Shown here: piece by piece, positions 12,143 to 62,216 of the stretch
Position numbering within the stretch: position 1 is the first letter of the stretch
Layout: every line of letters begins with the position of its first letter
Assembly (NCBI GenBank): GCA_035609245.1
Contig: CP141202.1
Coordinates: 806,001-870,000 of the forward strand
DNA from: Bacteroidales bacterium MB20-C3-3
Lineage (GTDB): Bacteria > Bacteroidota > Bacteroidia > Bacteroidales > UBA932
Length of the DNA: 64,000 nt
Direction: 5' to 3'
Translations under genes and position numbers: made by a program
The notes under the pieces: model-generated
Seen by the model: the letters and a program-made list of their open reading frames with translations, nothing else
The model's database searches: none
What the model was told of the DNA's origin: nothing

Positions 12143-13384
12143 ATGGGGAAATATAACTATACGAAGCTCAATGTTTTTTTTTCAACTCTGAATTTTATTT
12201 TGCTATTTGTAGGCTATCAACTTGCCACTAGTTTATTATTACCAATATCATCAAGTATTGAAGGGATTTCTCGTTCAGTAACGGTCCCATATAGAGGATT
12301 TGCATTACTTATATCACTTGTAGTTATTTTTCTTAACATCAAACGAAAAATAGGTAAGACTCCCGTTGCATTGAAAGTGCTATGGATATTTTGGATTGCT
12401 CTGATAATAAGGATTTTTTATGACACAAATATTCGTACTGATGTTCACTTGAACGATACAAGACAACTGTGGCTGTATGTGTTTGGCATATGTCTACCAG
12501 CAATGTTTTCTGTAATGAAGAGCATTAAGATGATAGATCTTGAGAAAGCGTTGAAATGGGTTTATTTTGGAACTGTTCTTACGCTATTTCTTTCTCTGTT
12601 CACCAATACATCGCTCTTATTAGATTCTGCTGAAGTTACAGGTAGAGCAGAAGCTAATTTAGCCTTTGATTCAATAGCATTTGGCCATTTGGGTACAACA
12701 GGCGTAATATTGTCTATGTTCTTGCTATCGAAAGCAGGTGTATCTCTAATTAGAAAATTCATCTATTTAGCTGTAATTTTATTATCTTTCTTTGTAATTG
12801 TGAGGGCCGGAAGTAGAAGCCCTGTTATGGCACTAACTGTTATTGTCCTTTTTTGGTTATTCGCTAGAGGTAGAAATATATTGTTTGGTACAGTGTTTAT
12901 TGCAATAGCAACAACATTATTGGTTGTTTTCATTAAGCCAATTCTTAATTTCATGGGTAATATATCACCTGTGATGGAGTCTAGATTAAGACTTGGAATA
13001 TATGAACAAGATTCAAGTGGACGTGATCTTCTTTATGAGAGAGCTATTAATTTATTTACGAAAAGTCCTATTCTTGGCGAGCAATTTGCTCTATTTGATA
13101 ATTATGGTGGTTTTACATATTCACATAATATCATTTTAGATGCTTTTATGGGTTTGGGTATTTTAGGAGGATTATCGATGATTTATTTTTTGTGGAATTC
13201 TCTTAAAAAAAGCTATTTGGCTATAAAATATAATGATCCTATTTTTTGGGTTTCACTATTATTAATTCAACAGATTGTTCTCAATTTGTTTTCAAGTGCT
13301 TTCTATTATAATCAACTGTTAAATGCTTTGCTAGTTTTTATATTTCTATATTCAGTTAAGAGACCAACAAAAAAACTATATTGA
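12143..13384 (+). CDS. wzy: O-antigen/capsule repeat-unit polymerase (Wzy-like)
   Basis: A 413-residue membrane protein with about 10-12 hydrophobic segments. A long periplasmic loop (about residues 270-330) contains SSGRDLLYERAINLFTKSP and a conserved-looking YSHNIILDAFMGLGILGG, as in the Wzy/WaaL superfamily. It would polymerise the flipped repeat units. The gene starts 16 bases after wzx and is equally AT-rich. Family assignment rests on topology and the loop pattern, because Wzy sequences diverge strongly. Confidence 0.75.
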   Translation: MGKYNYTKLNVFFSTLNFILLFVGYQLATSLLLPISSSIEGISRSVTVPYRGFALLISLVVIFLNIKRKIGKTPVALKVLWIFWIALIIRIFYDTNIRTDVHLNDTRQLWLYVFGICLPAMFSVMKSIKMIDLEKALKWVYFGTVLTLFLSLFTNTSLLLDSAEVTGRAEANLAFDSIAFGHLGTTGVILSMFLLSKAGVSLIRKFIYLAVILLSFFVIVRAGSRSPVMALTVIVLFWLFARGRNILFGTVFIAIATTLLVVFIKPILNFMGNISPVMESRLRLGIYEQDSSGRDLLYERAINLFTKSPILGEQFALFDNYGGFTYSHNIILDAFMGLGILGGLSMIYFLWNSLKKSYLAIKYNDPIFWVSLLLIQQIVLNLFSSAFYYNQLLNALLVFIFLYSVKRPTKKLY

Positions 13385-14167: not shown

Positions 14168-15274
14168 TTGAAATATGGAAATATGGAAATAGAATCAAAA
14201 ATTCATAAAAAAAAGAAGTTATTAATTTTATACAATAAGTTATTTCATTATAGAATTCCAATTTTCAATCTTTTAGCTGAAGAATATGATTTGACTGTTG
14301 TTTATTCATATAATTCAAATGAAAAAATCATTTCTCAATGTAATTTTAAGACAAAGTTTATTCCAATAATTAAAATTTGGAAGTTTGTCTTTCATAAAAC
14401 TAATATATCAAAATTTTGCGATAATTATGATATTGTTATAGCTTATGGTCAATCTACATGGTTAAGCTATTCGTCATTAGTATTAAAGAAGAATAGGAAA
14501 TTTAAGCTTATATTTTGGACTATTGGAGCACCTGCTTCTTATACTAGAAATTATGGAGAAGCCGGACGTTTGTATTTTGCATTTAATGATTTTTTTGATC
14601 ACAAAGCAGATGGATTGATTTTTTATTCAAATAATCCAATCGAAATGCATCATAAAAGAGGATATCCTAAAGAAAAGATGTTTGTAGCCGATAATACAGT
14701 AAAAGTCTTAAAACAAAATATCAATCCAGAAATAAAAAATGCAATTCTATTTATCGGTTCTTTATATTTAGAGAAAGGGTTAAATATATTATTGGATTCA
14801 TATTTAGCTGCATATAAAGAAAATATTGCTATTCCAGAATTAAATATTGTCGGTGGAGGAAATGAATATAACAATATATTTGAGTGGATCAAGCAGAATA
14901 ATTTATTAGATAAAATCCATCTTTTAGGTCCAATTTATGATGAGAAAACTAAAGCTGAAATATTTTCAAAATCTATAGCATCAATTTCTCCATTACAAGC
15001 CGGACTTTCTGTCCTTGAAAGTATGGGTTATGGAGTACCATATATTACAATGAAGAATGCTATTACGGGTGGAGAAGCATTTAATATAGACAATCATGTT
15101 AATGGATTAACTTTAGATGACATAAGTGAATTCAAAAACATCATATTAGATATTTCAATAGACAAGCCAAAATATATTCAATTTGGACTAAATGCTTATA
15201 ATCACTATTGGAAAAATAGAAAACCTGAAGATATGGTTAAAGGTATTAGATACGCAATTGAACAAAAAATATAA
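14168..15274 (+). CDS. Glycosyltransferase, GT4 type
   Basis: The 368-residue protein has a short N-terminal Rossmann half (LILYNKLFHYRIPIFNLLAE) and a GT-B C-terminal half with GSLYLEKGLNILLDSY, LNIVGGGNEYNNI and the donor-binding segment SISPLQAGLSVLESMGYGVPYI, where Glu follows the SxLE pattern of GT4 enzymes. It transfers a sugar to the lipid-linked repeat unit; donor and acceptor are not evident. The track start is a TTG at 14168; the ATG at 14183 (MEIESKIHKKKK) is more likely. Strongly AT-rich, like wzy. Confidence 0.82.
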   Translation: MKYGNMEIESKIHKKKKLLILYNKLFHYRIPIFNLLAEEYDLTVVYSYNSNEKIISQCNFKTKFIPIIKIWKFVFHKTNISKFCDNYDIVIAYGQSTWLSYSSLVLKKNRKFKLIFWTIGAPASYTRNYGEAGRLYFAFNDFFDHKADGLIFYSNNPIEMHHKRGYPKEKMFVADNTVKVLKQNINPEIKNAILFIGSLYLEKGLNILLDSYLAAYKENIAIPELNIVGGGNEYNNIFEWIKQNNLLDKIHLLGPIYDEKTKAEIFSKSIASISPLQAGLSVLESMGYGVPYITMKNAITGGEAFNIDNHVNGLTLDDISEFKNIILDISIDKPKYIQFGLNAYNHYWKNRKPEDMVKGIRYAIEQKI

Positions 15275-15277
15275 TAT

Positions 15278-15919
15278 ATGAAGAAATACATTTTAGGTTT
15301 ATTAAAATATCTTTTCTACAAGAGGGTTTCATTGTTAGCACAAGTCACCTTTGATTCAAACATTTCAAGAAAATCAAAGGTTAATAGATTTTCTAAAGTT
15401 TATTCATCTAATATATTAGATTATTCATATATTGGTCCAAATACTGAATTAGTCTTAGTCAATATTGGAAAGTTTTGTTCTATCGCTCAAAATTGCAGTA
15501 TTGGTTTGGCTACTCATACAATTGAAAACATTTCAACTTCTCCAATATTTACTGAAAAACATAATGGCACTTCTTTTTCATGGATTGAAAAAGATACTCT
15601 TAATTATAAACCAAAAATTGTAGAAATTGGAAATGATGTTTGGATTGGAAAAAATGCAACAATTCTTAGTAACATTAAGGTGGGTAATGGCGCAATTATT
15701 GGTACTGGTGCTATTGTTACAAAAGATGTTCCAGATTATGCTGTCGTTGCGGGAGTACCAGCCAATATTATCAAGTATAGATTTTCCAAGGAAATTATTA
15801 ATAAGCTTTTAGAAATTAGGTGGTGGGATCTACCAGAGATAAGTTTGAAGAAAAACATTCATATATTTCAAAAAGAAAAAATAACTCTAGAAGATTTAAA
15901 TAGGATTATCCTCAAATAA
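15278..15919 (+). CDS. Hexapeptide-repeat acyltransferase (XAT-type left-handed beta helix)
   Basis: 213 residues. Imperfect hexapeptide repeats run from about residue 45 ([20 protein letters not shown]) to the coil with [20 protein letters not shown] and [20 protein letters not shown], followed by the XAT signature [11 protein letters not shown]. The loop His at THTIENIS matches the catalytic His of the family. It should acetylate a hydroxyl or amino group of a sugar, possibly the 4-amino group made by the DegT enzyme at 33035; that link is inference. It starts 3 bases after the glycosyltransferase gene. Confidence 0.82.
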
Positions 15920-21198: not shown

Positions 21199-22401
21199 AT
21201 GACAATGAACATCCTATTTTTATTCTGTTCTCTTCCAAATCTTTCAGATGACAAATCGCTATTCTCATCATTAATACACGAATTCAAACATCAAGGACAT
21301 AATGTTTTTGTTTCTGCAAAGGGTCAAAATACATCTAAAACCGAATTGGTTGAAGAAAATGGGATACCCGTTATTCGCATTCATTCGCAAGATTTCACAG
21401 GCGTAAGTAACAATTTCAAAAAGGCACTGGGATATATTGAATATTCCATTAAACAAGTATATTATACAAAAAAAAAACTAAGAAATCAGAAAATTGATTT
21501 AATTATATCTCACTCACTACCGCCAGAAATTGGATTAATTATTGGAAATCTGAAAAAGCACTTCATATGTCCGTTCTACTTGATTCATACAGATTTTACT
21601 TGGCAAGATGCTGTGGCATATGGTTATTTTGGCAAAAATAGCCCTATTGGCCTTTATTATCGTTACTGCGAAAGACGAATGCTCAAATTATCGAACTATA
21701 TATGTGTACCACTTAAACATACAGTTAAGTATATATGCAATTTCTATCCATGGCTTCCTGAGAGCCGTTTCCGAGTTTGTCAGTTCTGGCAAAAATCTTT
21801 TGAAATGGTAAAAAATGATGAATCTCGTAAGAAACTTGGTCTTGAGGGTAAGTTTGTGGCCATTTACGGTGGTTCTGTAGGCCAGGCTCAAAAAATTGAA
21901 TACATGGTTAACCTGGCTGAAGCGGTTAAAAACAATGAAATGATTATATTCTTGTTACTTGGCAAGGGTGCAAAATTAGATCAAATAAAGAATATGGTAC
22001 ACAACAAGGGACTTAAGAATTTCCTTTTTCTTGACTATATGCCAAAGCTAGAATATTTGCAATTACTATCCTCTTGTGATGCAGGTCTTATCATACTCAA
22101 TGATATTCACGGTTCTCCTAACTTTCCTAGCAAAACTGCATCATACTTTAATTTGCAGGTACCAGTGCTAGCTGCAATTGATAGTGAGAAAGGTTACGGT
22201 GAATTCCTTGACGAAACTCAGACCGGATTATGGTCTATAAGTGGTGATATAGATGCTTTTAAATCTAATCTGCTCAAGATGTATAATAATCCAACGCTTT
22301 GCTCTAAGATGAAAGAGAATGAGCTTAATTACTTCCGGGGAAAAATGACTGTAGAATATGCATATAAGCTTATTAATGACCATATTAAATCTAGCATATA
22401 A
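21199..22401 (+). CDS. Glycosyltransferase, GT4 type (WbuB-like)
   Basis: The 400-residue GT-B enzyme opens with MNILFLFCSLPNLSDDKSLF, has an N-terminal half resembling WbuB-type fucosaminyltransferases (IIGNLKKHFICPFYLIHTDF), and a donor domain with VAIYGGSVGQAQKIEYMVNL, FLLLGKGAK and FPSKTASYFNLQVPVLAAI. Because UDP-FucNAc genes lie just upstream, FucNAc transfer is a reasonable but unproven role. The true ATG is at 21199 or 21205. A 19-unit heptamer repeat starts four bases after its stop. Confidence 0.8.
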   Translation: MTMNILFLFCSLPNLSDDKSLFSSLIHEFKHQGHNVFVSAKGQNTSKTELVEENGIPVIRIHSQDFTGVSNNFKKALGYIEYSIKQVYYTKKKLRNQKIDLIISHSLPPEIGLIIGNLKKHFICPFYLIHTDFTWQDAVAYGYFGKNSPIGLYYRYCERRMLKLSNYICVPLKHTVKYICNFYPWLPESRFRVCQFWQKSFEMVKNDESRKKLGLEGKFVAIYGGSVGQAQKIEYMVNLAEAVKNNEMIIFLLLGKGAKLDQIKNMVHNKGLKNFLFLDYMPKLEYLQLLSSCDAGLIILNDIHGSPNFPSKTASYFNLQVPVLAAIDSEKGYGEFLDETQTGLWSISGDIDAFKSNLLKMYNNPTLCSKMKENELNYFRGKMTVEYAYKLINDHIKSSI

Positions 22402-22405
22402 TTAT

Positions 22406-22538
22406 TGTGCTATGTGCTATGTGCTATGTGCTATGTGCTATGTGCTATGTGCTATGTGCAATGTGCTATGTGCTATGTGCTATGTGCTATGTGCAATGTG
22501 CTATGTGCTATGTGCAATGTGCTAAGTGCAATGTGCAA
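22406..22538. repeat. Heptamer tandem repeat, 19 units of TGTGCTA
   Basis: Nineteen uninterrupted 7-base units: 13 are TGTGCTA, five are TGTGCAA and one is AGTGCAA. Variant units are concentrated at the downstream end. The array lies between the stop of a glycosyltransferase (22401) and the ATG of an ATP-grasp gene (22583), 44 bases before that start. It is non-coding as placed. Such arrays change length by slipped-strand mispairing. Confidence 0.97.
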
Positions 22539-22582
22539 TATTTAAAAATGCAAATATTCAAAAAACAAGCAAACTATTGTAA

Positions 22583-33034: not shown

Positions 33035-34231
33035 ATGATAAAAAAAATCTGGCTCTCACTGGCCCATATGGGCGGTATGGAGCAAAAATTTATACAATCG
33101 GCCTTTGATACAAACTGGGTAGTTCCGCTCGGCCCAAATGTGGATGGATTCGAAAAGGATCTGGAAGCTTATATCAGCGGCGATAAACATATAGTGGCTC
33201 TGAGTTCGGGAACGGCGGCTATACATCTGGCGCTTATTCAGTTGGGAGTGCAGTCGGGGGATGAGGTAATTTGCCAATCCTTTACTTTTAGCGCAAGTGC
33301 TAACCCAATTAAATATGTTGGGGCAACGCCTGTATTTGTGGATAGTGAGGAGGAGACATGGAATATGGATCCAAAGCTGCTTGAGATTGCAATTGAGGAT
33401 AGGATTAAGATAACAGGTAAGAAACCTAAGGCGATTATTCCGGTGCATCTTTATGGAATGCCGGCAAAGATGGATGAAATCATGGGAATTGCCGACAGGT
33501 ATGGGATTCCGGTACTTGAGGATGCGGCCGAGGCTCTGGGTTCAAAATATAAGGGAAGATGCTGTGGTACTTTTGGGGAGTTTGCTTGTCTCTCTTTTAA
33601 TGGAAATAAGATAATAACTACTTCGGGTGGTGGGGCTCTGGTTTGCTCTAATGCCGAGGCCGCCGGTGTTACAAAGTTTCTGGCTACTCAGGCTCGTGAT
33701 AATGCGCCGCACTATCAGCACTCTCATATTGGATATAACTATCGGCTTAGCAATATCTGCGCCGGAATTGGAAGGGGGCAGATGTTGGTGCTGGATGAGC
33801 ATATCTCCGCAAGAAGGGAGATAAATAATAAATATAAAAAGTTGCTGCAGGGCTTACCAGGGATATCATTCCTTACAAACCCTTCAGATGAATTTGAATC
33901 AAATATGTGGTTAACCTGTATATTGGTTGACCCTAAAGTTACCGGCTTCACTCGTGAAGATTTAAGATTAGCAATGGAGGCTGCAAACATTGAAACCCGG
34001 CCTCTTTGGAAACCGATGCATATGCAACCTGTGTTTGAAGAGGCACCGTTTTATGGACACAACGACAGCAGCTGCTTTACCAGCTTTAACAAAGACTCAG
34101 ATATAGAACCGGAGAGAGAGAATAGCGTTTGCGGACAGTTATTTGAGAAGGGATTATGCCTTCCCTCCCACCCTGGTTTGAGTGACGAAGATTTGGAGAG
34201 AGTTGTGGGGGTGGTGAACACCTTGCCATAG
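33035..34231 (+). CDS. DegT/DnrJ/EryC1/StrS sugar aminotransferase (PglE-like)
   Basis: PLP enzyme that aminates a 4-keto-6-deoxy nucleotide sugar, probably the product of the dehydratase at 2787. In 398 residues it shows LSSGTAAIHLALIQLGVQSG, QSFTFSASANPIKYVGATPV, VLEDAAEALGSKYKG, and the PLP lysine in SFNGNKIITTSGGG (about residue 191). The start WLSLAHMGGMEQKFI is typical of PglE/LegC types. Its last codons AAC ACC TTG CCA TAG are formed by a family 1 repeat half (34220-34243), where CCACAG has become CCATAG. The IS3 element ends about 50 bases before the start. Confidence 0.9.
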   Translation: MIKKIWLSLAHMGGMEQKFIQSAFDTNWVVPLGPNVDGFEKDLEAYISGDKHIVALSSGTAAIHLALIQLGVQSGDEVICQSFTFSASANPIKYVGATPVFVDSEEETWNMDPKLLEIAIEDRIKITGKKPKAIIPVHLYGMPAKMDEIMGIADRYGIPVLEDAAEALGSKYKGRCCGTFGEFACLSFNGNKIITTSGGGALVCSNAEAAGVTKFLATQARDNAPHYQHSHIGYNYRLSNICAGIGRGQMLVLDEHISARREINNKYKKLLQGLPGISFLTNPSDEFESNMWLTCILVDPKVTGFTREDLRLAMEAANIETRPLWKPMHMQPVFEEAPFYGHNDSSCFTSFNKDSDIEPERENSVCGQLFEKGLCLPSHPGLSDEDLERVVGVVNTLP

Positions 34232-34243
34232 TTTTTGGCAAGT
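34220..34243. repeat. Family 1 REP half-unit (a)
   Basis: Single copy of the REP core, ACCTTGCC-A-T-AGTTTTTGGCAAGT, with the 6-bp stem CTTGCC/GGCAAG. It overlaps the 3' end of the aminotransferase gene and supplies its stop codon. The partner half in inverse orientation is missing. Confidence 0.85.
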
Positions 34244-34324
34244 AACGCAATCTGAGAGGGTTGCGTTTTTAAGAATTTGGCTATTTAACATAATTATTAT
34301 TGTTGGAGGTAAGCGGAAGGGGAC

Positions 34325-34348
34325 ACTTTGCCACAGTTTTTGGCAAGT
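34325..34348. repeat. Family 1 REP half-unit (b)
   Basis: A second half in the same orientation as (a), 105 bases away, with one change (ACTTTGCC) at its edge. A normal unit has inverted halves, so (a) and (b) are not one REPIN. Confidence 0.8.
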
Positions 34349-34367
34349 GATTGATAAATAAAGATAT

Positions 34368-34416
34368 CCTATTCTACCCTTAATATGTTGGACCAACATA
34401 TTAAGGGTAGAATAGG
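34368..34416. repeat. Perfect 24-bp inverted repeat with 1-base centre
   Basis: Left arm 34368-34391 (begins CCTATTCTACCC, ends ATATGTTGG) and right arm 34393-34416 are exact reverse complements around a single A. It stands at the left border of the segment that carries the DUF4143 ATPase gene and is followed at once by a fragment of a sugar transferase gene. Confidence 0.95.
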
Positions 34417-34476
34417 TGGGACCTCGGCCTCTGCTGGTGCAGTACCTTCCGCTATATACCGAGAGGCAGGCGAGGG
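34413..34476 (+). pseudogene. Fragment of a PglC-type sugar transferase gene
   Basis: The frame reads [19 protein letters not shown], nearly identical to residues 29-47 of the truncated transferase at 35735 and to its DNA (GGGACCTCGGCCT.TGCTGGT). It is a detached or captured duplicate of that stretch, with no start or active site. Confidence 0.7.
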
Positions 34477-34493
34477 GGTCCAACACATTTAAT

Positions 34494-34540
34494 AATTTCT
34501 TTGCAAATATGGAATCCTATTCCATATTTGCAAAGAAATT
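34494..34540. repeat. Perfect 22-bp inverted repeat upstream of the DUF4143 ATPase gene
   Basis: Arms 34494-34515 and 34519-34540 (AATTTCTTTGCAAATATGGAAT and its reverse complement, given by position) are separated by CCT. It lies 26 bases before the ATG of the ATPase gene. TTTG in the right arm and TATCTTTG at 34555-34562 could be -33 and -7 elements, so it may act as an operator. Alternatively it is an end structure of a mobile cassette. Confidence 0.9.
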
Positions 34541-34565
34541 CAAAAATATAAATGTATCTTTGTGT

Positions 34566-35732
34566 ATGATACGACGAGAAATCAGCAGTCAACTGCAGAA
34601 AATGGCAACCAAAATGCCTGTTATATCAATTACAGGTCCACGCCAGTCCGGGAAAACCACATTGGCCCGGATGTGTTTTCCGGAATATAGTTATGTAAAC
34701 CTTGAAAGTCCGGATGTGTACGAAGCTGCTGTTTCTGATCCGCGTTTGTTCTTGTCGCAATTCCCCAGGGGTGTTATTATTGATGAGGTGCAGCGGTTTC
34801 CCGCTCTGTTTTCTTACATTCAAACTATGAGCGATGAGCGGAACAGGCCGGGAGAATATGTTTTGACCGGATTGCAAAACTTTCTGCTTTCTGAGAAAAT
34901 TTCACAAAGTCTGGCAGGCCGAGTTTTTGTTACCCATTTGCTCCCTCTAAGCGTATCGGAGTTGCGCAGCACTGATGAAGTGAAGTCCACCGATCTGGAG
35001 GCGACTCTATTCAGGGGATTTTATCCGCGTATTCATCAAATGGATATTGAACCCGAATTATTCTTTCCATCGTATATCCAAACATACATTGAACGCGATG
35101 TACGACAAATAGTGAATGTCACTAATTTATTTCTTTTTCAGAAGTTTCTCCGAATAGCAGCAGGCAGAGTGGGGCAACTGCTTAATTACAATAACATAGC
35201 CAACGAGGTAGGCGTCGATTTGAAAACAATTAAATCATGGTTCTCTATTTTGGAAACTAGTTTTATCGTCTTTTTTCTTCAACCGCATCATCGCAATTTC
35301 TCAAAAAGAATTCTGAAAACACCCAAGCTCTACTTTTACGATACAGGATTGGCATGTAGCCTGCTAGGAATACGAAAAAAGGAAGAGCTATCGGCTCATT
35401 GGGCTAAGGGTGCATTGTTTGAAAATATGATTATTGCAGATTTAACAAAAGAGTATTTGAACCGATGTATTACTCCTCCTATCTATTTCTGGCGAGACTC
35501 TTCCGGCAATGAAGTAGATTGCCTGATAGATACCGGCGACAAAATCCAATGTATAGAGATAAAATCGGCTACCACCATATCATCCGATTTTTTCAAAGGG
35601 CTTGATTTTTATCGCAGGTTAAACTCAGAAGCAGAACCAATTTTAATATACGGTGGCGACACAAACGGCGTTCGGAAAAATGGAAAAATCCTGGCCTGGA
35701 ATAATTCCGGCGAATTGACATCTTTAAATTAA
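34566..35732 (+). CDS. AAA ATPase with DUF4143 domain
   Basis: 388 residues from the ATG at 34566. The family-typical start [19 protein letters not shown] is followed by Walker [14 protein letters not shown], Walker B-like [11 protein letters not shown], and the sensor region [21 protein letters not shown] (AAA_14). The DUF4143 C-terminal domain follows with [17 protein letters not shown]-type winged helix, [12 protein letters not shown] and the nuclease-like [21 protein letters not shown]. The role of this very common family is unclear. The frame extends upstream to 34416 only through unrelated sequence. A -7-like TATCTTTG ends just 3 bases before this ATG, so the message may be leaderless or the ATG at 34602 may be used. 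Confidence 0.85.
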
Positions 35733-35737
35733 AAATG

Positions 35738-36091
35738 TTGGTACGCTCTTTGTCCATTGATGAGCTTCCTCAGCTGATAAATGTACTGAAGGGGGATATG
35801 AGCCTGGTGGGACCTCGGCCTTTGCTGGTACAATACCTTCCGCTCTATCCCGATAGGCAGGCGAGGCGGCATGAGGTGAAGCCGGGAATGATCGTATGGG
35901 CGCAGGTGAACGGGAGGAATGCGATATCGTGGGAGCAGAAGTTTGAGTATGATGTGTGGTATGTGGATAATTTGAGTTTGTGGCTGGATATAAAAATTCT
36001 ATTTTTAACTTTTAAGAGGGTCTTTTTCAGGGATGGGATTAATGCGGGGAGTGATGTAAAGGAGCACCTTGCCACAGTTTTTGGCAAGTAA
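35738..36091 (+). pseudogene. 5'-truncated PglC-type sugar transferase
   Basis: About 116 residues: [20 protein letters not shown] with the catalytic Asp-Glu, [33 protein letters not shown], then the C-terminal helix. The membrane helix and the first active-site segment (RPG..FxxxKFRSM) are missing, so it is probably inactive. The break lies where the ATPase-bearing segment ends (about 35737). The last eight residues HLATVFGK and the stop codon TAA come from the family 1 repeat at 36066. The intact enzyme for this step is at 26632. Confidence 0.85.
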
Positions 36092-36203
36092 TTGATTTTC
36101 TGTTACATAAAAAGTACATTTTTCCTCAAGCACCAATTTTTGCAAAAAAATGGTTGAAGCAATTATCTCTATATCTGACACTTGCCAAAAACTGTGGCAA
36201 GGT
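36066..36203. repeat. Family 1 REPIN-like unit (c), 138 bp
   Basis: Outer halves ACCTTGCCACAGTTTTTGG.. and ..CCAAAAACTGTGGCAAGGT are inverted. Each contains the stem CTTGCC/GGCAAG around a 9-base loop. The central part differs more from the consensus than in other copies. The left half encodes the C-terminus of the truncated sugar transferase. Confidence 0.9.
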
Positions 36204-36774: not shown

Positions 36775-36911
36775 ACCTTGCCACAGTTTTTGGCAAGTAG
36801 TTGTATTTCTGGTATTTGCGAACAGCATTTTTTGACAGCATCTGCGTTTCTCAAAAAATGGTTTCTGCAAATCACTCTAAACCTGATACTTGCCAAAAAC
36901 TGTGGCAAGGT
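36775..36911. repeat. Family 1 REPIN-like unit (d), 137 bp, upstream of RAYT gene
   Basis: Complete unit with inverted REP halves, internal TTTGCGAACAGCATTTTTTG and CAGCATCTGCGTTTCTC as in the other copies. It ends 123 bases before the RAYT start codon. Confidence 0.95.
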
Positions 36912-36940
36912 GCCCGTGGCAAGGTGCCCGCGGCAAGGTG
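36899..36940. repeat. Three tandem copies of the REP outer end
   Basis: GTGGCAAGGTGCC occurs three times in a row (the last with CGCGGCAAGG). The triplet extends the right edge of unit (d). It may reflect slippage or repeated end processing. The following 60 bases are C-rich and carry no gene. Confidence 0.75.
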
Positions 36941-37034
36941 CCTCCCCCCTCCCCGCGCCAAGGCGCCTCCCCTCCCCGCAGCAAGGTGTGGATTTTTTTG
37001 TATATTGCGGTTGAAATTTGTGGGAGGGATTGTG

Positions 37035-37922
37035 ATGAGGGATTTTTCGTCTTTGGTTGGTGCGGCTGATAGGGCTATCTTTTCTGTTGGTAGTGAGAGT
37101 TTAGCAAGTGAATTTAAGAATCTGAAAATCAGGGAGGAGCCCAGGCGGGTTCAGGTCGGGTTTTTCCATGTGTGGATAAGGGGGAGTAGTCGGTATAATG
37201 TTTTTTACAATACCGATGATTTTGTCGGCTTTCTGGAAAGGTGCGACAGGGCGGCAAAAAATAATAAAACCTTTGTGTCGGCGTTTGTACTGATGGACAA
37301 TCATGTTCATTTACAGATATATACGCATTGCCTGAATGATTTTATGAGGTCTTTGCTGATGAGTTTTAATCAGTGGTATAACCGGCGGAAGGGGCTCAGC
37401 GGGCAGCTTTTCAACAGTCCGTTTTGTAGCAAACTCATTGATGATGAGGATTATCTGAGGTATAATTATTTATACATACTTACCAACCCTGTGCGGGCGG
37501 GGATTTGCGAAAATATAACGAAGTATCGGTGGAGTTCGTATCATTTCACGAAGAAGGGGTATTATAATTACTTGAGTAAGTTTTTGGATATTAATTACTT
37601 GGTGAATGATTTTTTGTTTAAGTCTTATAGTGACTTGCATGCCGGTGCCGAAAAGCATTTGAGGGATTGGTGGTCTGCTGAAGAGGCCGGGAATGGTGTT
37701 AAAAATTATTCTAAGGAGCTGATTCGGCCTACTGATAATGAAGTCGCTAAGTACCTGAATTTCATTTTAAAAGGGAAGAGTCTGAGCGATATTAGTCGTA
37801 GTGAACTTGTTAAAACGATGCAAATTCTCCGGGAGCGAGGCGGGGCAACATATCGGCAGATCTCAGCCGTTACCCGAGTGAGTTTTTATGATGTGATCAG
37901 GATGCTGAGGGGGGAGCGGTGA
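37035..37922 (+). CDS. REP-associated tyrosine transposase (RAYT, HUH/Y1 family)
   Basis: 295 residues from the ATG at 37035, which is preceded by GGGAGGGATT; the longer upstream frame runs through repeat (d) and is not genuine. The catalytic HUH motif is NHVHL (H90, H92), the single tyrosine is in SFNQWYNRR (Y115), and the family segment YLYILTNPVRAGI..YRWSSYHF follows. The C-terminal 60 residues form a helical DNA-binding region (GATYRQISAVTRVSFYDVIR). RAYT proteins cut and join single-stranded DNA at REP hairpins. Here the gene is flanked on both sides by family 1 units (d) and (e), which are most likely its substrate. Confidence 0.9.
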   Translation: MRDFSSLVGAADRAIFSVGSESLASEFKNLKIREEPRRVQVGFFHVWIRGSSRYNVFYNTDDFVGFLERCDRAAKNNKTFVSAFVLMDNHVHLQIYTHCLNDFMRSLLMSFNQWYNRRKGLSGQLFNSPFCSKLIDDEDYLRYNYLYILTNPVRAGICENITKYRWSSYHFTKKGYYNYLSKFLDINYLVNDFLFKSYSDLHAGAEKHLRDWWSAEEAGNGVKNYSKELIRPTDNEVAKYLNFILKGKSLSDISRSELVKTMQILRERGGATYRQISAVTRVSFYDVIRMLRGER

Positions 37923-37942
37923 GAGGCGGCCCGCCGGGGGGG

Positions 37943-38079
37943 ACCTTGCCACAGTTTTTGGCAAGTAATTGTTTATCTGAAATTTGCGAAGAGCATTTTT
38001 TTGACAGCATCTTCGTTTCTCAAAAATGGTTGCAGTAAATAGCTCTAAACCTGATACTTGCCAAAAACTGCGGCAAGGT
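37943..38079. repeat. Family 1 REPIN-like unit (e), 137 bp, downstream of RAYT gene
   Basis: Complete unit starting 21 bases after the RAYT stop. Inner sequence TTTGCGAAGAGCATTTTTTT..CAGCATCTTCGTTTCTC is near the consensus, with CGAAGA/TCTTCG able to pair. One change in the right half (CTGCGGCAAGG). Confidence 0.95.
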
Positions 38080-38254: not shown

Positions 38255-39535
38255 ATGATACTTGAGTTAAAATTCAAGAACTTCCTCTCTTTTAAAGATG
38301 AGGTAGTTTTTTCATTTGAAGCAACATCCGATAAATATCTTGAAGACTACTATGTTGCAGAACCGGAACCTGGTGTCAGAATCCTCAAAATGGCCATGAT
38401 ATACGGAGCAAATGCATCTGGCAAGAGCAATGTATTGCACGCCTTTGATTTCGTTAGGAGCTTTGTTAAACGAATCCCTACTCAATCTGAAAAGTCTACT
38501 GAATTTATTCCTTTTAAATTTGTTGATAATCAAGACTTGCCTGGTAGCTTTGATATGATTTTCTATATTGAAGGTACTAAATACAAATACTCCCTCGTTT
38601 TAGATGAAGAAAAAGTTCATTCAGAAATACTCCATTATTATCCCGGGACTCAACCTGCAATTATTTTTGAAAGAACTTTAGATATTAAAAACGATACTTC
38701 TATCCTAAAATTTGGCTCAAAAATAAAGTTGTCAGACCAGGCAATTGAGGCAATACAACTGAAAACTTTAAAGAATATGTCTGTATTTGCGGCATTTACA
38801 CAAGTGAACATTTCGTTACCTCAATTAAACATTCCATTGAATTGGTTTAGAAAACAATTTATGCCAATGATTGATCCATATTCATCACTAACAAATTATT
38901 CAGATAGTTATATTAAAAAGGACGAGAGAGTTAAAAATCAAGCTCTTGACTTTATCAATAAGGCTGATTTTAATATATCTGCTGTTTCTTTCAAAAAACA
39001 AACAACTTGGCTGGATGATGAAGTCTTAAAATTGATAGAAGCTGGCTCAATGCCTGATGAACAAAAACATAAACTTCTAAATGAAAAGGCTATTCATATT
39101 GATAAAAGACTCTTTGAACACAAAATCATAATTAATAACAAAGCAAAATACTATTCGCTACCTGATGAACTTGAATCAAAAGGTACATTGAGATATTATG
39201 GATTGTCTGCACCGTTCTTTAATGCTATTTCTAATGATTCATTTTTATCAATTGACGAAATTGGAACAGCATTACATCCATTGCTTGTTATGCATTTTTT
39301 GAAAGAATTCTTAAAAAAGTCCAATAAAGCACAATTGCTATTTTCAACTCATAATGATTCTCTTTTAAGTGAAAAAGATATTATTAGGAAAGATGCCATC
39401 TGGTTTACAGAAAAAGATAAGCAAGGAATAACTTCTCTTTATTCATTATCGGACTTTAATATCCGGAAAGAGTTATCTTACTACAATGCATATAAGCAGG
39501 GTAAATTTGGGGCAATACCTAATTTAAATGAATAG
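38255..39535 (+). CDS. AAA-family ATPase, RloA/AbiL-like defence component
   Basis: 426 residues of the SMC/ABC-like AAA_21 type. N-terminal LKFKNFLSFKDEVVFSFEA, Walker A YGANASGKSNVLHAF (about residue 50), a long helical insertion (about 215-290), Walker B FLSIDEIGTALHP (about 333) and the switch His in LLFSTHNDSLL. Together with a following RloB protein this matches the RloA/RloB pair, which also corresponds to AbiLi/AbiLii of Lactococcus. Such proteins are thought to sense phage infection and trigger a nuclease partner. It ends 2 bases before rloB. Confidence 0.82.
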   Translation: MILELKFKNFLSFKDEVVFSFEATSDKYLEDYYVAEPEPGVRILKMAMIYGANASGKSNVLHAFDFVRSFVKRIPTQSEKSTEFIPFKFVDNQDLPGSFDMIFYIEGTKYKYSLVLDEEKVHSEILHYYPGTQPAIIFERTLDIKNDTSILKFGSKIKLSDQAIEAIQLKTLKNMSVFAAFTQVNISLPQLNIPLNWFRKQFMPMIDPYSSLTNYSDSYIKKDERVKNQALDFINKADFNISAVSFKKQTTWLDDEVLKLIEAGSMPDEQKHKLLNEKAIHIDKRLFEHKIIINNKAKYYSLPDELESKGTLRYYGLSAPFFNAISNDSFLSIDEIGTALHPLLVMHFLKEFLKKSNKAQLLFSTHNDSLLSEKDIIRKDAIWFTEKDKQGITSLYSLSDFNIRKELSYYNAYKQGKFGAIPNLNE

Positions 39536-39537
39536 TT

Positions 39538-40155
39538 ATGGCTAGAAGATCTCAAAGAAGAGAGACAAGGAAAACCTTTGTCGTACTCGGAGACGGAATC
39601 ACTGAGCAATACTACTTAAAGCATTTAAAAGAAATTAAAGGCTATAAGTATTCAATCCGTCCATCACTTTTTGAAAGGATAAATTTTGAAAAGGCCGAAC
39701 GGATTATTGATGAATATTTGTGTGGAGGCTGCAATAATATTATTTACCTGACTGATTATGACACAATAATTAATCAGAATAAACTATATGATTTCAGGGC
39801 ATTTAAATTAAAGTATTCCGCCTTTCCAGAAGTTCTAATATGCGAAACAATGCCCAGTATTGAATTTTGGTTTTTAATTCATTACGAATATACTACCAGT
39901 GAGTTTAGAAATTCTGGCGAAGTAGAAAGAAGGCTTAGAACATATATTTCTGATTATTCAAAATCAAAATCATTCTTAGAATCAAGAAGATGGGTAGAAA
40001 ACCTTATGGCAGACAATAAACTTGAAAAGGCAAAAATAAATTCAAAGAGAATTATTAAACGAATGAGGGAAGAAGTACGTGGCCCCCATTTTGCTTTTTC
40101 TGAAGTTCATAATGCTATAAACCTATTTGAGAATAATGAAGAATCGGCAAGATAA
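39538..40155 (+). CDS. rloB: RloB family protein (TOPRIM-like), putative defence effector
   Basis: 205 residues starting MARRSQRRETRKTFVVLGDG. Acidic motifs in TOPRIM-like order are visible: GDGITEQYYLKHL (Glu), IIYLTDYDT (DxD) and ETMPSIEFWFLIHY (E..P..E-W), which are the conserved marks of RloB. It probably acts as the nuclease of the pair. Two-base spacing from the ATPase gene and three bases to the next gene indicate one operon. Confidence 0.85.
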   Translation: MARRSQRRETRKTFVVLGDGITEQYYLKHLKEIKGYKYSIRPSLFERINFEKAERIIDEYLCGGCNNIIYLTDYDTIINQNKLYDFRAFKLKYSAFPEVLICETMPSIEFWFLIHYEYTTSEFRNSGEVERRLRTYISDYSKSKSFLESRRWVENLMADNKLEKAKINSKRIIKRMREEVRGPHFAFSEVHNAINLFENNEESAR

Positions 40156-42745: not shown

Positions 42746-42797
42746 AGGAGGCGGGTGCAAGATAGCACCTTACAAACTTGGCGGGAGGCGGTGAGGT

Positions 42798-42922
42798 TTG
42801 ACAGTGACATTCGTCTATCTAACAGGTTGTTAGATATTTAAAAATTGGTTTTTTAAAAAGTTTTTAAACACTCGATTTCTAATTGCTTGTTATCTAAGCA
42901 CATAAACGAATATCCCTGTCAA
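42798..42922. repeat. Family 3 MITE-like unit, 125 bp (copy A)
   Basis: The ends TTGACAGTGACATTCGTCTA and ATAAACGAATATCCCTGTCAA (given by position at 42902-42922) are inverted. Internal AAAAAGTTTTT is shared with the other copies. It sits 53 bases after the sheath remnant, inside a 449-base gap (42746-43194) that also holds a family 4 element and otherwise nothing recognisable. Confidence 0.92.
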
Positions 42923-43068
42923 CACACTCTGTTGCGGGGAGGAGGCATTATAGGGTGTGTGTGTTAAACATTAATTACCGTCAATAATCACAGATAAACT
43001 ACGAATAACATTGGCATAGTAAATTTTTTGTTAAAATTTTCTATAAATAATACTGTATTTTAAATTAA

Positions 43069-51772: not shown

Positions 51773-52198
51773 ATGCTCATTCGTGTTACATCTAAACTTT
51801 TGACCATTTCCAGAATTAGTGCTGAAAGGTGCGATTCGCTGCCGGCTGAGGGGTTCCCGGGCGAGTGGTACGCAAATCTGTATCCTGCTTTTCAGGCCGA
51901 TACGGATTGTACTATTTATGCCACTTCAAGCCGAAGTCTTCTTGCTGTGATGTCTCAGATGGGGATTAGTATTGAGAGCGCATTCTGGGACTTGCGCGAC
52001 TCTGTTGGCTGGGACCCTGACTGGGATCCCGCCGATTCAGATTTTGTTTCTCTTGAAAACCGATATCTTGACTATCTCATTGGTGGCCAGACAGCTAAAC
52101 AACGCGGGGAAATGTATGTTAGCGCCAGAGAGCTGCTTGAGCACCTTGCCGTGCCCGGACACCTTGCCGGGCACCTTGCCACAGTTTTTGGCAAGTGA
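51773..52198 (+). CDS. Hypothetical protein ending in a REP-encoded tail (possibly DUF6933-like)
   Basis: 141 residues, acidic. The opening MLIRVTSKLL and PGEWYANLYPAFQADTDCTI, YATSSRSLLAVM have the look of DUF6933 proteins, but I am not sure. The last part [18 protein letters not shown] is encoded by two partial and one full copy of the family 1 outer end; the stop TGA belongs to repeat (f). The original C-terminus was therefore replaced or extended. Confidence 0.55.
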   Translation: MLIRVTSKLLTISRISAERCDSLPAEGFPGEWYANLYPAFQADTDCTIYATSSRSLLAVMSQMGISIESAFWDLRDSVGWDPDWDPADSDFVSLENRYLDYLIGGQTAKQRGEMYVSARELLEHLAVPGHLAGHLATVFGK

Positions 52199-52310
52199 TT
52201 ATATATCTGATATTTGAGAAGAGCATTTTCTTGACAGCATCTTCGTTTTGCAAAAAATGGTTGCAGCAAATAGCTCTATATCTGATACTTGCCAAAAACT
52301 GTGACAAGGT
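52173..52310. repeat. Family 1 REPIN-like unit (f), 138 bp
   Basis: Complete unit with inverted halves; two extra outer-end fragments CACCTTGCC lie directly before it (52142 and 52160). The left half is the 3' end of the gene 51773-52198. The right half has CTGTGACAAGGT, one change from the consensus. Confidence 0.93.
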
Positions 52311-52432: not shown

Positions 52433-52678
52433 AGGGCAGGTGGCTGTAACTTATTGAATTTTTGGTTATTGACACTTTAACCGAGGGGTCACCCCTCGGA
52501 TTAAGTGTTAATGCATTGAAATACACTTCATAGCAGCGACACGGGGAACTAAGGTTTTTCTGCCGAACGGCTGGACACGGCGGGGCACAACTTAAACCGG
52601 ACGGGAACCGGCCGTATAAACTGCGAAGCACCTTTTAGACTTGGCGGGAGGCGGTGAATTGGCGGGAGGCGGTGAGGT
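52433..52678. repeat. Conserved tail of family 2 block
   Basis: Shares CTGTAACTTATTGA, the hairpin CGAGGGGTCACCCCTCG (52479-52495 region), GTGTTAATGCATTGAAATAC, CAGCGACACGGGGAACTAAG, CTTAAACCGGACGGGAACCG, GTATAAACTGCGAAGCACC and GGCGGGAGGCGGTGA with the other blocks. No gene is seen; short frames here are by-products of the GC-rich repeat. Confidence 0.78.
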
Positions 52679-52803
52679 TTGACAGGGATATTTGTTTATC
52701 TAACAGTATGTTAGGTGTTTAAAAATTAGGTTTTTAAAAAGTTTTTCAAAAAGCGATTTGCAATCACATGTTTTCTAAGCACATAAACGAATATCACTGT
52801 CAA
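52679..52803. repeat. Family 3 MITE-like unit, 125 bp (copy B)
   Basis: TTGACAGGGATATTTGTTTA..ATAAACGAATATCACTGTCAA ends; same length as copies A and C. It follows the family 2 tail directly. Confidence 0.93.
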
Positions 52804-52824
52804 CCCGTGCCGGGCGTGAGGCTT

Positions 52825-52872: not shown

Positions 52873-52975
52873 ACCTTGCCACAGTTTTTGGCAGGTAGCT
52901 AACTAACTGCAAGTTGCAAAAATCGATTCTTTAAACACCTAAATTTCTGCTACTTGCAAAAAACTGCGGCAAGGT
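52873..52975. repeat. Family 1 short unit (g), 103 bp
   Basis: Inverted REP halves with changes (GGCAGGT; ACTTGCAAAAAACTGCGG) around a shorter centre that differs from the other copies (CTGCAAGTTGCAAAAATCG). It may be an independent pairing of two REPs or a divergent subfamily. A GC-rich 60-base stretch then leads to the susD stop codon. Confidence 0.85.
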
Positions 52976-57934: not shown

Positions 57935-58071
57935 ACCTTGCCACAGTTTTTTGCAAGTAATTGTTATTCTTGCTCTTACTAATAGCATTTTTTGATAATT
58001 TCCATGCTTCTAAAAAAATGATTTCATTAAATACTTCTATATCTGATACTTGCCAAAAACTGTGGCAAGGT
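57935..58071. repeat. Family 1 REPIN-like unit (h), 137 bp
   Basis: Complete unit; the left REP has TTTTTTGCAAGT instead of TTTTTGGCAAGT, weakening its stem, and the centre diverges from the consensus (CTTGCTCTTACTAATAGC). The right half is canonical. Confidence 0.92.
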
Positions 58072-58164
58072 CTCTCGGCCGGGGCGGAGCGCGAGCCAGA
58101 AGCCGGGGCGCTGGCCGTGGCGGGGCGCTGGAAGCGCGGCGGGGCGCTGGAAGCGGAGCTGCTC

Positions 58165-58268
58165 AAGTTATTTCCCGCAGCGGAAGGGCGGGTTATTTCC
58201 CGCTCATTTCGCAAGCTCTTTAAGGGCTTGCGGCGCGCGGGAATAACCCGGGCTGCGAGAATAACTTC
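58165..58268. repeat. Family 2 nested-hairpin unit (copy C), 104 bp
   Basis: Same structure as copies A and B; separated from unit (h) by 93 GC-rich bases. The short stem CGCAAGC/GCTTGCG is complete here. Confidence 0.92.
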
Positions 58269-58304
58269 AGGACAGACGGCTGTAACTTGTTGATATTTTG
58301 TTTA

Positions 58305-58347
58305 TTAACACTTAATCCGAGGGGTCACCCCTCGGATTAAGTGTTAA
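58305..58347. repeat. Perfect 21-bp hairpin in family 2 tail
   Basis: Arms 58305-58325 and 58327-58347 around a single C: outer TTAACACTTAATCC, inner GAGGGGT. The same place in other blocks holds hairpins with paired changes (36583-36620; 61892-61934). Confidence 0.93.
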
Positions 58348-58680
58348 TGCATTGAAATACATTTCATTGCAGCGACACGGGGAACTAAGTTTTTATGCCG
58401 AACGGCTAAACACGGCGAAGCACAACTTAAACCGGCCGGGAATCGGCCGGTTATCTTCCCCGGTTGTTCGTCTGCCCTACCCGCAGCGCTGTAACACGCT
58501 GATTACCTAAACATAAGCAATCCACCTGTCAGGTGATCTGACAGGTAGATTGTCTATGCGCTGATAATCTGGGACTTAGAACCGCACGGGTTTCGCAAAA
58601 ATCATCTGCCGAATGGCTAATACGGGTAGCTCACCAGCTTGAGCATCACCTGCACATATGCGTCGCAGTTGTAAAAAATA
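58348..58680. repeat. Rest of the family 2 tail and a CTGTCAG hairpin
   Basis: Shared block sequence (ATGCATTGAAATACATTTCA, GCAGCGACACGGGGAACTAA, CTTAAACCGGCCGGGAATCG) continues to about 58452. A separate stem follows, CAATCCACCTGTCAG / CTGACAGGTAGATTG (58518-58552). The stretch to 58680 has CTGCCGAATGGCTAA, a motif found at the edges of other blocks. No gene is seen. Confidence 0.65.
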
Positions 58681-61352: not shown

Positions 61353-61490
61353 ACCTTGCCACAGTTTTTGGCAAGTTATTGTATTTCTTATGTTTGCGAA
61401 GAGAATTTTCTTGACAGCATCTTCGTTTTTCAAAAAATGACTGCAGCAAATAGCTCTAAACTTGATACTTGCCAAAAACTGTGGCAAGGT
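61353..61490. repeat. Family 1 REPIN-like unit (i), 138 bp
   Basis: Complete unit with canonical halves and central CGAAGAGAATTTTCTTGACA / CAGCATCTTCGTTTTTC. It starts 30 bases upstream of the small gene ending at 61167, on the side of its start codon, so here it is at a 5' side. Confidence 0.94.
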
Positions 61491-61579: not shown

Positions 61580-62011
61580 AGGTGAGAAAGAGAGACCCCG
61601 GTGAATATCAGGATAGTCAGGCAGCTGTAACTTGTTGTTTTTTGTTAATTGACACTTTAACCGAGGGGTGACCCGTCGGATGGAGTGTTAATGCATTGAA
61701 TTACACTTCATTGCAGCGACACGGGGATTGAAGATTTTTCTGCCGGATGGCTAAACCGGCGGAGCACCGCTTAAACCGGCCAGGAACCGGCCGTATAAAC
61801 TGCGAAGCACCTTATAAATTTGGCGGATGATGTGTCGGAAGGAGGTGAAGTGGTAGACCCGTGCGGCTGTATCTAGCTTACTGAGTGCGCGTTAACACTT
61901 AATCCCGCGGATGATCCGCGGGATTAAGTGTTAACTTGAAGATATACTGTGAGTTATAGCGGTGCGGATATATAGTTTACTAATGGTCTTTGATGTGGGA
62001 AACTTTAGGGG
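61580..62011. repeat. Family 2 tail, with a second hairpin variant
   Basis: The shared tail runs from CAGCTGTAACTTGTTG (about 61620) to GTATAAACTGCGAAGCACC and GGCGGATG at about 61830. Its first hairpin (GACACTTTAACCGAGGGGTG, 61650 region) has decayed. At 61892-61934 is another perfect hairpin: outer TTAACACTTAATCC, inner CGCGGAT-G-ATCCGCG. No gene is seen. Confidence 0.75.
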
Positions 62012-62136
62012 TTGAGTGGGATATTCGTTTATCTCACAGATAATTAGATAGTTAAAATTTAGTTTTTTAAAAAGTTTTTGAAAATATGATTTGCAATTAC
62101 TTGTTTTCTAGTACTATAAACGAATATCCCTGTCAA
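62012..62136. repeat. Family 3 MITE-like unit, 125 bp (copy C)
   Basis: TTGAGTGGGATATTCGTTTA and ATAAACGAATATCCCTGTCAA ends (given by position 62116-62136), the same length as copies A and B. GTTTTTTAAAAAGTTTTTGA in the centre is conserved. Confidence 0.93.
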
Positions 62137-62216
62137 CCCAATTTCTCTTTTGTCTCTGCTCCGGAGGAATTCTGCTGCCGGGAGGAGGCATTTATATGGT
62201 GCCGGGCGGGAGGCCT

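Follow-up and report, generated by a model that had tools for sequence, protein, structure and literature searches.

A RAYT-type transposase gene bracketed by its probable REPIN substrate in a Bacteroidales chromosome

Introduction

Transposases of the IS608 and TnpAREP types cut single-stranded DNA with a tyrosine and mobilise repeats in trans. RAYT/REPIN biology is known almost wholly from Proteobacteria, and the arrangement is hardly described in the Bacteroidales lineage. The structure 4ER8 holds a RAYT bound to a REP hairpin, and in class 2 proteins the catalytic tyrosine is carried by a Y---NP motif (PMC6006769). Pseudomonas fluorescens SBW25 has 430 REP doublets, and the spacers of REPINs are less conserved, fixed in length and able to fold back, with compensatory changes being common (PMC3116915). 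Subclass 2.6 includes RAYTs of Bacteroidetes whose flanks have non-canonical secondary structures, found again elsewhere in the genome, and for subclass 2.1, which is equated with the TIRYTs, REP-like sequences were not found near the gene (PMC6006769). Related TIRYTs have TIRs alongside, some of them organised as dimers (PMC3733652). No literature on Bacteroidales REPINs was found beyond PMC6006769; most subscription papers lay outside the coverage, so this is weak evidence.

The locus described here consists of a transposase gene, RAYT-A, and the repeat that brackets it, REP-A. It is a real RAYT/REPIN system, a Bacteroidales variant and not a new kind of element, and the interpretation given in an earlier note on this DNA is partly supported.

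A RAYT gene between two REP units

The host chromosome is one closed contig of 2,379,874 bases (2.38 Mb), and its bases 806001-870000 form the window, the whole 64-kb stretch of DNA that was analysed. The RAYT-A ORF runs from an ATG at 37035 to a stop codon at 37920-37922 (295 aa), and this start is backed by the N-terminus M-R/K-D-F-S that close relatives have in common in the alignment. The features of the locus are as follows, in window positions.

37035-37922, plus strand: RAYT-A gene, encoding a 295-aa Y1/HUH transposase-like protein (N89-H90-V91-H92, Y147, N151-P152, C-terminal helix-turn-helix-like tail at about 255-292)
36775-36911, no strand assigned: upstream REPIN-like unit, 137 bp, folding as one long hairpin (DNA MFE -45 kcal/mol, z -12.3)
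37943-38079, no strand assigned: downstream REPIN-like unit, 137 bp (z -6.6)
34220-34349, no strand assigned: two REPs in direct orientation, a degenerate pair
36066-36203, no strand assigned: REPIN-like unit, 138 bp
52173-52310, no strand assigned: REPIN-like unit, 138 bp
52873-52975, no strand assigned: short REPIN-like unit, 103 bp
57935-58071, no strand assigned: REPIN-like unit, 137 bp, with a counterpart at the equivalent site of a second genome of the same species
61353-61490, no strand assigned: REPIN-like unit, 138 bp, with a counterpart at the equivalent site of a second genome of the same species

The observation of a RAYT gene bracketed by REP units, with which the earlier note began, is partly confirmed. 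The note had placed a 295-residue HUH/Y1 protein with NHVH between two 137-bp units of inverted CTTGCC/GGCAAG hairpins, and both the ORF and the two flanking units were found. The five further units that it reported within 24 kb are also present (36066-36203, 52173-52310, 52873-52975, 57935-58071 and 61353-61490), the third being the short one. As it had stated, none of them has its own transposase, no second RAYT being detected in the 64-kb window.

The REP pattern, with up to two mismatches, has 21 matches in the window, against 1.8 expected (mean of the shuffles; maximum 7), and none of 100 shuffles reached 21. Over the whole genome there are 12 inverted pairs, one pair in direct orientation (34220-34349) and three lone REPs, which have no partner (53137, 890045 and 2213176). 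As in REPINs, the inverted REPs stand at a fixed spacing, ten of the 12 inverted pairs measuring 137-138 bp and two 103 bp.

Some REPs make up the 3' ends of genes and supply their last codons or stop (window 36068-36091 and 34222-34231; L034; L081:3480-3510). In unit 36066-36203, the left REP supplies the C-terminal residues ATVFGK of the sugar transferase ORF 35735-36091 together with its stop codon, while the left REP of the direct pair contains the stop codon of the aminotransferase ORF 33035-34231. The RAYT genes of two related genomes, G012 and G010, themselves end in a REP.

Upstream, an ORF for an AAA/DUF4143 ATPase (window 34416-36091) lies between duplicated 64-bp pieces of the sugar-transferase gene (34415-34478 and 35806-35869, 89%); the transferase ORF spans only the C-terminal half of its family, so the gene looks split. 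Directly downstream of RAYT-A (window 38255-40155) are an AAA_21 ATPase and then an RloB-like protein, which look like a candidate Abi/Rlo-type defence pair. The window also contains a tandem array of the 7-mer GTGCTAT (22378-22553).

The RAYT-A protein

RAYT-A was called a RAYT-type Y1 transposase in the earlier note, and both profile and fold comparisons agree with this. The model NF047646 (REP_Tyr_transpos) matches RAYT-A with E 2.7e-13, at 50-52 bits against a curated cut-off of 80 that RAYT-A does not reach; this cut-off is an annotation threshold and no biological criterion. NF047646 matches all 18 RAYTs of alignment A1, and all five RAYTs of this genome score under its cut-off, so the model seems not to cover the clade. 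A Pfam search with RAYT-A gave no match at E 1e-3 and a weak Y1_Tnp match (E 0.0019) at a loose threshold. A PDB search with the single sequence gave no useful match, and 4ER8 was the top match of a sequence-profile search (E 7e-4). For an AlphaFold2 model built from 24 related sequences (mean pLDDT 84), 4ER8 is again the best PDB fold match (E 4.9e-7, TM-score 0.69 on target), followed by the ISDra2 and IS608 transposases. Identity to E. coli TnpAREP, the protein of 4ER8, is 18% over the match.

The HUH motif of RAYT-A is N89-H90-V91-H92 and its Y---NP motif is Y147-ILT-N151-P152, with the HUH motif, Y147 and N151 being invariant across 18 aligned RAYTs. By alignment, Tyr147 is the predicted catalytic tyrosine. 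The earlier note had named Tyr115, which in RAYT-A is the tyrosine of QWYN; as the catalytic tyrosine of E. coli TnpAREP is Y115, the number given was that of the E. coli protein. RAYT-A thus has the features by which a RAYT is recognised, namely a predicted Y1/HUH core fold of the TnpAREP type with a Y---NP motif, and a gene with REPs on both sides, further copies of which are found elsewhere in the genome.

The C-terminal tail is modelled as three helices (255-267, 273-280 and 284-292). The motif ATYRQISAVT..S...V, conserved in these helices, can be aligned with the C-terminal tails of related proteins, Firmicutes RAYTs among them. No Pfam HTH match was obtained in the tail even at E 10, and it is therefore termed helix-turn-helix-like.

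Structure of the REP-A units

Folded as single-stranded DNA, a unit is predicted to form one hairpin along its whole length, closed by a terminal stem of 24 bp (z -12.3 and -6.6 for the two bracketing units). When the centres are aligned, their mean pairwise identity is 72% (range 59-92%), compared with 60% for shuffled centres and 96% for the unit ends. The centre is moderately conserved, and its description as a strongly conserved 85-base centre is not upheld. Four units (chromosome positions 842775, 843943, 858173 and 867353) have centres that are 82-88% identical and form a recent group.

Across 16 units from three species, the outer and inner stems lie on the same dyad axis and 95.9% of cells pair, falling to 37-55% when the partners are slid by one to three columns. 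Cells changed on both sides number eight, against 2.9 in shuffles (0/500), although related sequences inflate such counts, which are thus support and not proof. The units therefore show what characterises a REPIN: conserved ends, a less conserved spacer and a long fold-back with compensatory changes. The claimed departure from classical REPINs falls away, since fixed length, fold-back and compensatory changes are the pattern already described (PMC3116915).

On one strand the 5' feet of the REP-A hairpins are GATA, GACA or GCAA; those on the opposite strand are GCAC, GGAC or AGAC. Neither a GTAG nor a GGAG tetranucleotide occurs among them, so recognition as in E. coli would not be possible without some change. 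One unit of the related genome G017 (L078:8448-8615) has the palindrome of another repeat family (GTTATTCTCGCAGCCCGG...GGGAAATAAC) inserted in its centre.

Other RAYTs of the genome and their repeats

Five RAYTs are found in the genome, at chromosome positions 843035 (RAYT-A), 800441 (B), 2156187 (C), 1284809 (D) and 789356 (E). RAYTs B-E are 28-37% identical to RAYT-A. The tree places A, B, E and the C/D pair on separate branches, and the closest neighbours of each gene come from other genomes; E. coli rayT is too divergent (branch of about 8) for reliable rooting. The earlier note had spoken of a single master gene. Taken as one RAYT per genome this is contradicted by the five RAYTs with their different repeats, though only RAYT-A adjoins REP-A on both sides.

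At least four of the five RAYTs are bracketed by a repeat of their own (A, and B, C and D with different ones). As at least three of the other four have a different bracketing repeat, RAYT-A/REP-A is one of several parallel pairs. RAYT-B is bracketed by four copies of a 43-bp palindrome, TTAACACTTAACCCCGCGG.., in chromosome region 798236-801709, located as follows.

L026:12236-12370, 12705-12823, 15252-15383 and 15591-15709: RAYT-B palindrome copies

RAYT-C is bracketed by TACTACCTCAGGGGTAATTGGCC pairs and RAYT-D by ATCGCCTCAGAGGAAAAGTGTCAAAC pairs. An inverted unit of about 131 bp is present on both sides of RAYT-E, and its family (GGTTTGACAGGGATATTCGTTTATCTAAC...) is dispersed over the whole chromosome, at about 24 places, including window 42778-42923, 52676-52806 and 62009-62139. 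This family is probably the REPIN of RAYT-E, the two being paired by position only. The automatic flank test gave no shared repeat within 700 bp at RAYT-E and, at RAYT-B, only a match in simple flanking sequence; the repeats of these two genes were recognised through the repeat search and by eye.

Palindromes related to that of RAYT-B, with paired base changes, are found at window 36578, 52469, 58305, 61649 and 61892, as well as in a few distant places. Between the RAYT-B palindromes there is an IS3-like two-ORF insertion sequence with TGTGCCGTCCTGAAATAGGTTGACT ends (L026:12830-14215; read by eye). A closed 2.2-Mb genome of the same family and another genus, G027, has ten RAYT matches.

The direct bracketing of the gene by units, here and in G012, would also be expected if RAYT-A and its two units were a composite insertion sequence moving as a whole. 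There is, however, one copy in this genome, and the paralogues, at 28-37% identity, are on distant branches of the tree, which makes such an element very improbable.

Association of gene and repeat in relatives

Some 50 diverged RAYTs occur in one Bacteroidales genus, and for many of them the cognate repeat is easy to identify; the co-change of RAYT and REP can thus be tested in a setting without the GTAG foot. The flank test covered 48 RAYT loci with usable flanks, 47 from the genus and one from a neighbouring genus. At 30 of the 48, the upstream and downstream flanks share a repeat scoring above 36, the maximum of 150 mismatched pairs. Among 27 non-redundant RAYTs, protein identity is correlated with repeat similarity (Mantel r 0.63, 0/5000 permutations), but the rank-based Mantel test is weak (rho 0.15, 225/5000), so the correlation rests on close relatives.

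Exact REP-A is present in three of 61 relatives, each with a gene of the RAYT-A clade (RAYT-A itself, and genes with 85% and 65-69% identity). When 393 genomes from across the order were scanned with a pattern permitting the G004 variant, matches came from this genome and G004 alone. The repeat changes along with the gene: the RAYT of G004 is 64% identical to RAYT-A and its REP has a T-to-C variant, that of G010 is 54% identical and the REP is retained with changes, and that of G007 is 52% identical with CTTGCCTTACTTTTTCGCAAG as its REP. In G012, units directly bracket the RAYT-A relative. There are two exceptions. G061, of the same species and 84% complete, has at least two full units, its RAYT-A locus not being assembled, and G022, which is 85% complete, has a few REP-like matches and no RAYT-A relative. 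The G004 gene was considered as a pseudogene and this was rejected, as the apparent internal TGA is its own stop codon, read through by the search.

This genus-wide co-occurrence and co-divergence of gene and repeat bears out the proposal that the bracketing units are the probable substrate of RAYT-A. The earlier note had named equal abundance of the units in related genomes lacking the gene as a result that would count against its reading. This is not what was found: relatives without a RAYT-A-clade gene almost all lack the REP. The same data bear on the idea that the hairpins are maintained by the host, as bidirectional terminators or stabilisers of mRNA 3' ends, with the RAYT domesticated for another task. 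The hairpins are long and stable, REPs form the 3' ends of two window genes, and the RAYT lineages are single-copy and old, as this idea would have it. Yet the copies are few, clustered and absent from most related genomes, which need terminators too, and repeat identity tracks the RAYT and not the species. A host function of this kind is therefore quite unlikely.

The RAYTs of the genus form one clade (100/100) beside Firmicutes NHVH/LFQ/YIH.NP proteins, in a tree without labelled references for subclasses 2.1 and 2.3-2.8. The nearest relatives of RAYT-A outside Bacteroidetes look subclass 2.1-like, which is a provisional assignment. As subclass 2.1 is the TIRYT class (PMC6006769), and RAYT-A has a helix-turn-helix-like tail, the units may instead belong to a TIRYT-type transposase as non-autonomous TIR elements. 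In that case the protein would recognise the 24-bp terminal inverted repeat whole, with its ends paired, and the small hairpin would be incidental. The ends of the G007 unit are fully complementary to each other (CTTGCCTTACTTTTTCGCAAG / CTTGCGAAAAAGTAAGGCAAG) though the small hairpin lacks a sixth pair, and both ends have changed together in G004, which fits recognition of paired ends. On the other hand, the small hairpin is retained in nearly all copies of the RAYT-A clade proper, and single REPs without a partner exist (53137, 890045 and 2213176). REP-A also lacks the GGGGWSAS of TIRYT repeats, the GGGGAC form of which occurs beside the Firmicutes relatives. Recognition of a whole terminal repeat is thus possible but the less favoured of the two modes.

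Distribution of REP-A around the gene

Classical REPINs are dispersed, whereas REP-A units are clustered near the gene. Of the 16 REP-A sites, 13 are no more than 60 kb from RAYT-A, where 0.8 would be expected (binomial P 7e-15, which overstates the clustering since the copies are not independent); when the two bracketing units are left out, the count is 11 of 14. The only distant full unit, at chromosome position 1534237, has a centre 92% identical to that of unit 863935 (window 57935), 670 kb away, so long-range spread also happens. REP matches are mostly near the gene in G010 (closed) and G012 as well, and less so in G004 and G017. RAYTs B and E are located in the same region as RAYT-A, and the E-type repeat is enriched there too (7 of 24). 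No target-site duplications are visible beside the 12 units. G061 has units at two sites matching those of this genome (window 57935 and 61353), so it supplies no empty site.

The concentration of 13 of the 16 sites in one region may also arise if the units are passively carried along by larger intergenic repeat blocks that multiply in this variable region through recombination or gene conversion, with the transposase now irrelevant. Units 52173, 57935, 61353 and 36066 (window) are near a shared block of several hundred bp, and a 569-bp block beside unit 57935 (window 58072-58640) is absent at the same site in G061, indicating recent gain or loss of other intergenic repeats. However, the block was not found beside units 788297, 805769, 843943 and 1534237 (chromosome), the units have sharp edges and differing flanks, and the same REP brackets related RAYTs in other species. 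Passenger spread is accordingly an improbable account of the units.

Spread by the transposase may itself be local. It is conceivable, though doubtful, that in this Bacteroidales lineage REPINs driven by RAYTs with a helix-turn-helix-like tail spread chiefly in the neighbourhood of the RAYT gene. Such local spread would follow if the tail acted as a tether, or if units inserted within the same replication fork region. The local clustering of REP-A copies is unusual, and testable.

A probable REPtron

RAYT-A and REP-A are best explained as a REPtron, in which a single-copy chromosomal Y1 transposase probably recognises REPs with the CTTGCC hairpin, those of its own REPIN family. If it acts as E. 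coli TnpAREP and IS608 do, RAYT-A would cut single-stranded REP DNA with Tyr147 and an HUH metal site, probably at replication forks, and would move REPIN doublets in trans without moving its own gene. REP binding, cleavage and transposition are inferred, as is any role of the C-terminal tail.

Comparison with known RAYT/REPIN systems

Like E. coli TnpAREP, the REPtron protein of 4ER8, RAYT-A has a Y1/HUH core fold, as modelled, and a Y---NP motif. Unlike it, RAYT-A is extended at the N-terminus and has a helix-turn-helix-like tail at the C-terminus; GTAG is absent from its REP. As in subclass 2.6 (PMC6006769), a Bacteroidetes RAYT is flanked by non-canonical structures. However, the motifs of that subclass are NH[LIV]H, WQ and YIH[QN]NP, and RAYT-A has NHVH, yet LFNSPF and YILTNP. 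The median length of subclass 2.6 is also 179 aa, against 295 for RAYT-A, and no long C-terminal domain is listed for it (PMC6006769).

Subclass 2.1, or the TIRYTs (PMC6006769, PMC3733652), shares NHVH and F replacing W, and where that subclass has a C-terminal helix-turn-helix extension, RAYT-A has a tail modelled as helices that is helix-turn-helix-like. TIRYT repeats often (in the majority, not in all) have GGGGWSAS, which is absent from REP-A; the flank test on the Firmicutes relatives gave GGGGAC-type repeats. The RAYT-A locus suggests that RAYTs with a helix-turn-helix-like tail, a class reported without REPs, can have full REPIN doublets.

With the REPINs and RAYTs of SBW25 (Bertels and Rainey 2011, PMC3116915), the REP-A system shares an inverted REP doublet of fixed length with conserved ends, a variable, fold-back centre in which compensatory changes occur, the proximity of units to a single-copy RAYT, and several RAYT/REPIN families per genome. 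It differs in its unit of 137-138 bp with 24-bp paired ends and no GTAG foot. Its population is also small (12 pairs, against the 430 REP doublets of P. fluorescens SBW25; PMC3116915), and whereas SBW25 REPINs are randomly distributed, the dozen or so copies of REP-A are clustered near the gene.
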